Below, one piece after another: positions 31,222-32,553 of a stretch of DNA of 64,000 nt; position 1 is the first letter of the stretch; each line of letters opens with the position of its first letter. Origin of the DNA: Isosphaeraceae bacterium (lineage in GTDB: Bacteria; Planctomycetota; Planctomycetia; Isosphaerales; Isosphaeraceae). The notes under the pieces are model-generated. The model was given only the letters and a program-made list of their open reading frames with translations. It was not told where the DNA came from and did no database searches. The stretch lies in assembly GCA_025356475.1 (NCBI GenBank), contig JANXSX010000168.1, positions 1-64,000 of the forward strand, read 5' to 3'. The translations under genes were made by a program, and so were the position numbers.

Positions 31222-32553
31222 ATGTCCCATCTGCCCCGGCTTGGTCTGGCCCATGTGGCGCGTACAAGTCATCCATTGTCAGCAGTCCTTGGGTTGCTGG
31301 GTGGGCTCACCCGTCGCGGCATTCAAGTTCAGCACTTTGGATCAAGAGCCTGCCCCTGTCTAACCGACCGTGCCGGGCGTGTCACAGGTCTGCCCGGTCG
31401 ACACCTCGACCCTCTTCTGATGTCACCGGAGAAGTGTCGGGAAGTGCTCCGTCTAGGAAGCCGGCGGTGTCAGCTTTCCGTTATTGAGGGGCAGGGGATC
31501 GGCTCATGTGGCGTTCAGCGCTCCGCGCTCTGGGAATCCGGGTTCGGACTGGGCCACCTTGCCGAGTCGCTCGATCTTCCTGTGATCGCGATCGTCCCGT
31601 GTCGTGGCTGGGATGATCTCCACCTGGTGGAGTTGCCGGAACACTGCGACGCGATCTTGCTCGATGGCCTGGAGTTCGCGTCCGAATTCCTTGCGATCCA
31701 ACGGGCCTATAGGGTGATCACCAAGAAGCCCGTGATCGGTGCCATCGAAGCGCTTCCAATGATTCGGGCCGGGTTGCGACATCTGGCTGAGGACGAGCCC
31801 GTCCCCCCAAAATGGGTGGAGGCTCTTGGCTCCAGCTTCCTTCGATTTGCGGACCTTGGAACACTTCGCCGGCTTGCCGAGAGTCGCTCGCTGGAAGTTG
31901 CCTCCGACAAGGACACCTCGCCCCAGTTCACCCGTCGGATGCGAATCGCCTACGCCGATGACGATGCGTTCGGCCTTTACTTCCCGGACACGCTTGAGAC
32001 CTTGGAAGCGTTTGGAGCCGAGCTTGTCGAATGCTCGCCGCTCAGGCATGCCGACTTGCCGCCTGGCACCGACTTTGTCCTCCTCGGCTGCGGGCGTCCT
32101 GAATTCTTCATGGCTGAACTCAGCGCGAACATGAGTTTCACCTCGGCGCTTCAGGAGCATGTCTACCAGGGGGGACGCATCTTTGCCGAAGGGGGAGGGG
32201 CTGCCTACCTGGCGCGAACGGTCTGGGTGGATGGACACCCTTTCCGAGGGGCAGGAATCCTGCCGTTTTCGGCGATGCTGCAGTCGACCCAGCGATCCTC
32301 TCAACCCACCCGACTTCGGCTTGAACATTCCTCCTGGCTTGGATTGGCAGGAGACGAGGTTTGCGGTTACCCCTCGGGACGCTGGAAATTCTTCAACGAA
32401 GCCGACGAGCCTGCAAACTCGGGTAGGCTGACCGCAGGCGGCGACCTGGTCTACCACCGCCATGCGATCGGGAGCATGATCCATCTCCATCCGGCAGCGC
32501 TGCCGGACCTCGTCGGTAGCATCGCACGATCACACGAGTATGCTCTCTCGTGA
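31222..32553 (+). CDS. CobB/cobyrinate a,c-diamide synthase-like protein, catalytic motifs lost
   Basis: 443 residues. The overall plan follows CobB/CbiA: an N-terminal dethiobiotin-synthetase-like domain (LGLLGGLTRRGIQVQHFG, GRHLDPLLMS, SVIEGQGIG, LDLPVIAIV) and a C-terminal GATase-3 domain (RRMRIAYADDDAFGLYFPDT, YQGGRIFAEGGGAAYLARTV, HPFRGAGILPFSAML). The N-terminal P-loop is absent: where family members have GxxxxGKT this protein has RTSHPLSAV. The glutaminase nucleophile in the AECGG motif is Gly here (AEGGG). It should therefore not amidate corrin in the usual way; a binding or regulatory role, or a different reaction, is possible. The frame is intact. No cobalamin genes are nearby. Confidence 0.72.
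   Translation: MSHLPRLGLAHVARTSHPLSAVLGLLGGLTRRGIQVQHFGSRACPCLTDRAGRVTGLPGRHLDPLLMSPEKCREVLRLGSRRCQLSVIEGQGIGSCGVQRSALWESGFGLGHLAESLDLPVIAIVPCRGWDDLHLVELPEHCDAILLDGLEFASEFLAIQRAYRVITKKPVIGAIEALPMIRAGLRHLAEDEPVPPKWVEALGSSFLRFADLGTLRRLAESRSLEVASDKDTSPQFTRRMRIAYADDDAFGLYFPDTLETLEAFGAELVECSPLRHADLPPGTDFVLLGCGRPEFFMAELSANMSFTSALQEHVYQGGRIFAEGGGAAYLARTVWVDGHPFRGAGILPFSAMLQSTQRSSQPTRLRLEHSSWLGLAGDEVCGYPSGRWKFFNEADEPANSGRLTAGGDLVYHRHAIGSMIHLHPAALPDLVGSIARSHEYALS

Follow-up and report, generated by a model that had tools for sequence, protein, structure and literature searches.

A conserved family of CobB-like proteins in planctomycetes that lacks the ATP loop and, in nearly all members, the glutaminase cysteine

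The stretch of DNA analysed here (64,000 nucleotides from a member of the Isosphaeraceae; hereafter, the window) encodes a CobB-like protein of a separate clade, for which we coin the name CBL. We consider it very likely that CBL is conserved but has no CobB activity. Our best overall explanation, held with reasonable confidence, is that CBL is an old planctomycetal family of CobB paralogues that lost its sites and is now a non-catalytic sensor or regulator, although the role of sensor or regulator, taken by itself, is a tentative assignment. As judged from its sequence, CBL is probably an ATP- and glutamine-independent pseudo-amidoligase, which would act as a ligand-binding or thiol-based regulator. 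The features on which this account is based are as follows.

31222..32553, + strand: CBL gene (putative CobB-like pseudo-amidoligase, 443 aa); intact ORF, GATase_3 match, full-length CobB alignment; 71 distinct CBL sequences
31222..31917, + strand: N-terminal synthetase-type domain, residues 1-232; separate AF2 model with pLDDT 87.5; nearest PDB folds are dethiobiotin synthetases (SIMIBI)
31252..31278, + strand: residues 11-19 (HVARTSHPL), the former Walker A loop; CobB has GTHSGSGKT in these columns
31399..31416, + strand: RHLDxW motif, residues 60-65 (RHLDPL in the window), from CobB RNLDTW in the alignment
31435..31437, + strand: Cys72; Cys in 63/71 CBL and 10/35 CobB
31942..32370, + strand: GATase_3 domain match (Pfam), residues 241-383
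32089..32091, + strand: Cys290, aligned to the oxyanion-hole residue Gly60 of GatD; Cys in 62/71 CBL, Gly in 35/35 CobB
32191..32193, + strand: Gly324, at the GatD Cys94 position, where CobB has its nucleophile Cys (35/35); Gly in 63/71 CBL
32368..32385, + strand: Y383....W388 motif in place of CobB HEFHYS; Tyr383 in 71/71 CBL
32482..32484, + strand: His421, equivalent to the catalytic His189 of GatD; kept in 56/71 CBL

The open reading frame runs unbroken from ATG to TGA through 443 codons, and its GC content by codon position (0.685/0.495/0.662) is like that of the neighbouring genes. A CobB-like fold over the whole product, which the original prediction had proposed, was confirmed by both profile searches and structure models. 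The Pfam GATase_3 model matched the window protein with an E value of 7.7e-14 (52.2 bits, for a cut-off of 27) and also matched all 35 CBL proteins scanned, so that CBL still belongs, by fold, to the GATase_3 superfamily. The NCBIfam CobB model PRK01077 aligned to residues 22-423 with 133 bits, below its curated cut-off of 254, and TIGR00379 gave 106.5 bits, below a cut-off of 261.4. The Pfam CbiA ATPase model had no match in any of the 35 CBL or in the window protein, and the N-terminal half of the latter showed no Pfam match of any kind. In the AF2 model of the whole protein (pLDDT 83.8), the C-terminal half is GatD-like, with 9sq9_D as the best PDB fold match (E 1.3e-10), and the N-terminal half, from its separate model, is similar to dethiobiotin synthetases (1dbs, E 2e-6; BioD matches at TM 0.44-0.58). 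These two halves, together with the PRK01077 alignment, reproduce the two-domain architecture (CbiA plus GATase_3) of CobB/CbiA. Sequence searches of the PDB, with either the window protein or the CBL alignment as query, yielded chance matches only.

Alignment with 35 CobB sequences places H17-P18-L19 of the window protein in the Walker A columns G16-K17-T18 (numbering of CobB L060), bearing out the replacement of Walker A that had been predicted. The loop was substituted and not deleted, because between strand 6-11 and helix 19-31 it has the same length as in CobB. Neither Gly16 nor Lys17 occurs in any of the 71 CBL, and the pattern GK[ST], found in 32/32 CobB, is absent from every CBL; we therefore rejected the existence of a displaced P-loop. 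Likewise, K39, D43 and D46 of the KxGPDxxD substrate/Mg loop are each found in 0/71 CBL, and in the second acidic motif (E..MGLFDG) D95 persists in three of 71, with only the Glu being mostly kept (57/71).

Overall, 67 columns show the same residue in 94% or more of CobB. In 34 of them the CobB residue is found in 10% or less of CBL, and 18 others, mainly part of the scaffold in the GATase half, retain it in 80% or more. The losses comprise the G, K and T of the P-loop, the K and both D of KxGPDxxD, the M, G, L and D of GLFD, and the H and E of HEFHYS, as well as two asparagines, one preceding LD (replaced by His) and one at window position 148 (replaced by Asp). Much of the GATase core is retained, as are L-D in RNLD and the Glu-Gly that precedes GLFD, and Asp63 of RHLDxW is invariant in all CBL and CobB. 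In turn, CBL gained near-invariant residues of its own at Tyr383 (71/71), Trp388 (67/71), Pro362 (66/71), Cys290 (62/71) and D148 (62/71). The window protein carries the whole CBL signature (RHLDxW, Cys290, Gly324, Tyr383 and Trp388) save for Trp65, which is Leu.

In GatD from S. aureus, C94 and H189 are catalytic, R128 captures glutamine and G60/G95 form the oxyanion hole; mutants C94A, R128A and H189A have their glutaminase activity abolished (PMC5871853). HMM alignments map window residues 324, 421 and 290 to C94, H189 and G60, respectively, with a consistent spacing of 34 residues between 290 and 324 in the window protein and between 60 and 94 in GatD. The window protein thus has, in His421, the catalytic histidine expected of CobB/CbiA, and the basic residue at the R128 position, which is R or K in 33 of 35 CobB, is unconserved in CBL. 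The elbow ECGG of CobB reads EGGG at window residues 323-326, so the predicted replacement of the glutaminase nucleophile by glycine is correct, with the qualification that a different cysteine, Cys290, lies elsewhere in the pocket. No CobB has Cys at this position (0/35), and residues 290 and 324 show a reciprocal swap: the pair is (C,G) in 57/71 CBL, and all 35 CobB have (G,C). At the level of sequence, CBL lost a cysteine at the nucleophile elbow and gained another on the oxyanion strand, and its glutaminase region is therefore not thiol-free. Of the two displaced features sought in the alignments, then, there was no P-loop but there was a cysteine, and its presence in most CBL makes a moved thiol possible, rather than a simple loss of chemistry.

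The elbow Cys is absent from 68 of the 71 CBL. The three exceptions, L142 (G158), L146 (G185) and L235 (G662), belong to family f5 and show ECSG, ECGG and ECSA, respectively; all three are without P-loop and HEFHYS, and Cys290 is also present in L142 and L146, but not in L235. Their elbow Cys was either regained or retained, and these proteins are possibly intermediates. Five other CBL have Ser, Ala or Thr at the elbow, with the exceptions concentrated mostly in the fast-evolving family f5. Cysteines make up 2.8% of residues in CBL and 1.3% in CobB (means of 13 and 6 per protein), and because of this enrichment Cys290 may belong to a general trend. In the window protein, the cysteine-related residues are 44, 46, 72, 83, 96, 127, 142, 271, 290 and 381, although most Cys positions of CBL are lineage-specific. 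Only Cys72 and Cys290 are family-wide, which does not support a four-ligand metal site, and a cysteine cluster acting as metal site was thus rejected.

We found CBL in 67 of 398 sampled genomes from the class of the window organism and in 39 of 45 genomes from its family, the Isosphaeraceae. In whole-genome searches, orthologues with 41-47% identity appeared throughout this family, whose genera in the records are Singulisphaera, Aquisphaera, Paludisphaera and Tautonia, and more divergent CBL were present in further families of this class, Pirellulales among them. Search scores split in two groups, mostly above 430 bits for CBL and up to 300 bits for canonical CobB, and two strongly diverged proteins of family f5 lie in between (L241, 415 bits; L242, 316 bits). 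L242 (G650, positions 1501-2847) is a very degenerate CBL, with ETDA at the elbow and ICLD instead of RHLD, and constraint is perhaps failing in its lineage. The phylum-wide sample outside the class contained matches at canonical CobB scores only, and a motif search with two peptide patterns, run over 84,980 species of bacteria and archaea, retrieved planctomycete records only, as far as these patterns reach. A collection search with the single window protein retrieved no relatives, because its sequence is too divergent, but queries with alignments did. Separately, CBL was absent from every sampled genome of genus g5 of the Isosphaeraceae (G004, G022, G032, G311), a natural loss.

After removal of the trait columns, we built an unrooted tree from 71 CBL and 35 CobB sequences, some of the latter from Pseudomonadota, Deinococcota and Fusobacteriota and one from an archaeon. 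In it, a single branch with an SH-aLRT of 100 separated CBL from the sampled CobB, with one change of label. The losses, when followed across planctomycetes, are features of this class-wide CBL clade. Values of dN/dS were 0.04-0.06 for CBL pairs with 93-97% amino acid identity and 0.09-0.2 for wider pairs, overall no higher than for pairs of true CobB (0.12-0.16), which indicates that the family is maintained under strong purifying selection and agrees with the earlier view, based on an intact frame and ordinary codon use, of a maintained gene. The window copy departs from the near-invariant CBL residues W65, F271, D276 and R381, and these deviations suggest that its constraint may be weaker than in its relatives.

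A true CobB was also sought elsewhere, and turned out to be a distinct gene. Ten relatives, nine of them Isosphaeraceae, have a separate canonical CobB gene with GKT, GPDxxD, GLFD or GLYD, and ECGG. Within the Isosphaeraceae, CbiC (PF02570) is confined to those nine genomes and G021, which is 68% complete. CBL, unlike CobB/CbiA, does not follow CbiC: in this family, nine of ten CbiC-positive genomes have CBL, and so do 24 of the 27 CbiC-negative ones, the three lacking it being from genus g5. None of these 24 CbiC-negative CBL-bearing genomes, the window's included, had a canonical CobB match. In the window genome we found no CobB, CobQ or CbiC, and its other GATase_3 matches resemble, from their sequences, HisH, PurQ and a DJ-1-like protein; B12-binding domains are present, and the organism appears to use B12 without making the corrin ring. 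Since true CobB is a separate gene that tracks CbiC, and the window genome has neither, CBL acts outside corrin synthesis.

CBL can thus be compared with several known systems. It shares two-domain architecture and length with CobB/CbiA (cobyrinate/hydrogenobyrinate a,c-diamide synthase), but differs in the absence of Walker A, KxGPDxxD, GLFD, elbow Cys (in nearly all members) and HEFHYS, in scores below the curated cut-off, in forming a separate clade and in its independence from CbiC. Among relatives of the CobB fold acting on other substrates, DsrN is a CobB-type siroheme amidase, and CfbB (Ni-sirohydrochlorin a,c-diamide synthase), with a non-corrin substrate, has long-range similarity to CBL (98.9 bits with NF033195 for the window protein, for a cut-off of 560). 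CfbB uses ATP and glutamine (PMC7242693), whereas CBL appears to have a site for neither. GatD, the best PDB fold match and the source of our residue map (C94/H189/G60/R128), has glutaminase activity in its complex with MurT, the lipid II amidotransferase; CBL lacks the equivalents of C94 and R128, and its synthetase half is fused and of another type. The N-terminal domain has a fold in common with BioD and other SIMIBI NTPases, without their nucleotide-binding loop. DJ-1/ThiJ and other altered class I GATase-like members set a precedent for thiol-based functions of this fold other than that of a glutaminase, although DJ-1 keeps its Cys at the elbow, where CBL has Gly, the CBL Cys being on the oxyanion strand. 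The name 'cobyrinic acid ac-diamide synthase' is also given to ParA-type proteins. A Planctomycetes-specific insert is reported for a protein of this name, which may mean CobB, CBL or a ParA-type protein (PMC3444138). Our literature search, with most subscription papers outside its scope, retrieved neither a CobB pseudoenzyme nor an earlier description of CBL.

These data show that CBL, a CobB paralogue of planctomycetes, has both CobB domains and much of the scaffold but lost the ATP loop, KxGPDxxD, GLFD, the basic residue that captures glutamine and, in nearly all members, the glutaminase Cys, and that it is maintained whether or not the genome makes corrins. Such a protein would be unable to make amides from ATP and glutamine, both pockets might have acquired another ligand or partner, and CBL could be a non-catalytic cytoplasmic sensor or regulator, probably using thiols (Cys290, Cys72). 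The dichotomy initially proposed, pseudoenzyme or new function, therefore stands in that the losses are fixed in a monophyletic family under selection, with true CobB as a separate gene; it does not stand as a simple thiol loss, and the loss of the elbow Cys is not absolute. Several observations count against the sensor or regulator reading: His421 is kept in more CBL than a dead glutaminase needs, three members have an elbow Cys, the genomic context depends on the family, and the window copy deviates at the four sites mentioned above. An alternative is a relocated nucleophile, the glutaminase pocket having been rebuilt with Cys290, at the oxyanion-hole position, as the thiol and His421 or His423 as the base of an ATP-independent thiol hydrolase or transferase, or of a covalent or redox switch, a possibility that we regard as unlikely. 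It is favoured by the reciprocal swap, which falls at homologous GatD positions, and by the presence of His at 421 or 423 in 60 of 62 CBL with Cys290, for five of nine without it; additionally, DJ-1, from the same superfamily, is described as redox-dependent (PMC521177). Nevertheless, this suggestive association of raw counts is not significant in tree-aware pairs, nine members with Cys290 have no His421, the side chain on an oxyanion loop need not face the pocket, and Cys is enriched throughout CBL. That CBL is an ATP-independent enzyme or covalent switch of a single planctomycete class, its thiol moved from the elbow to the oxyanion strand (GatD C94 to G60), is likewise rather improbable.

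The survival of CobB RNLDxW, a putative substrate site, as RHLDxW with its invariant Asp could indicate a tetrapyrrole or corrinoid carrier or sensor that keeps the CobB substrate site without catalysis, for instance in B12 salvage, and the window genome has B12-binding domains and no CbiC. We nonetheless find this role improbable, because the KxGPDxxD loop and GLFD are lost, no B12-transport or B12-dependent genes were recognised among the recurrent neighbours, and CBL occurs both in genomes that make B12 and in those that do not. The co-occurrence of both genes in at least eight Isosphaeraceae genomes might point to a regulatory pseudo-subunit of a heterodimer with canonical CobB; this is contradicted by the distribution of CBL, given the 24 Isosphaeraceae genomes without CbiC or canonical CobB match and the CBL without detected CobB in other families, so that we hardly credit it. 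Equally implausible is a decaying gene, an assembly error or a mis-called frame: the window copy does sit on a long terminal branch (0.92) and deviates at four otherwise near-invariant sites, but for the family this is contradicted by frames that are intact in dozens of genomes, the low dN/dS and the same motif states, losses included, in independent assemblies.

Independently of its role, CBL fails the tests that define CobB, and the label cobyrinate a,c-diamide synthase should not be used for it. Genomes with CBL can be misread as having a cobyrinate amidase, with consequences for predictions of B12 producers in soils and peat. CBL is also a natural test of how an enzyme with two sites, for ATP and for glutamine, can be rebuilt, with both sites lost and the scaffold strongly selected, and, if the moved cysteine were functional, it would represent an unusual relocation of the nucleophile in the class I GATase fold.

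The gene neighbourhood of CBL differs between families and, consequently, names no pathway. No partner is conserved class-wide, the recurrent ones being an MscK-like pair in Isosphaeraceae and HtrA, RNase III, PdxJ or MgtE elsewhere, and we rejected an operon logic; the gap to the upstream gene, mostly larger than 100 bases, does not support an operon either. At most, the neighbours are a hint of a link to envelope physiology. In 13 of 18 Isosphaeraceae loci, CBL and a two-part mechanosensitive channel of the MscK-like type are divergently oriented, and beyond the channel lie a D-Ala-D-Ala carboxypeptidase (S13) and, at some loci, succinate dehydrogenase genes. In the Isosphaeraceae loci (L035-L054), this channel lies upstream of CBL, head-to-head with it, and consists of a coiled-coil ORF without Pfam match plus an MscS ORF, or of one fused ORF. 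The window has the order sdh-dacB-CBL, with the channel gene missing in between and one channel-domain gene elsewhere in the genome. In other families, 11 of 28 loci (L095, L096, L097, L098, L099, L133, L134, L135, L140, L145 and L152) have a gene for an HtrA-type serine protease upstream of CBL; there, RNase III is mostly divergent beyond HtrA, and PdxJ or MgtE is found downstream.
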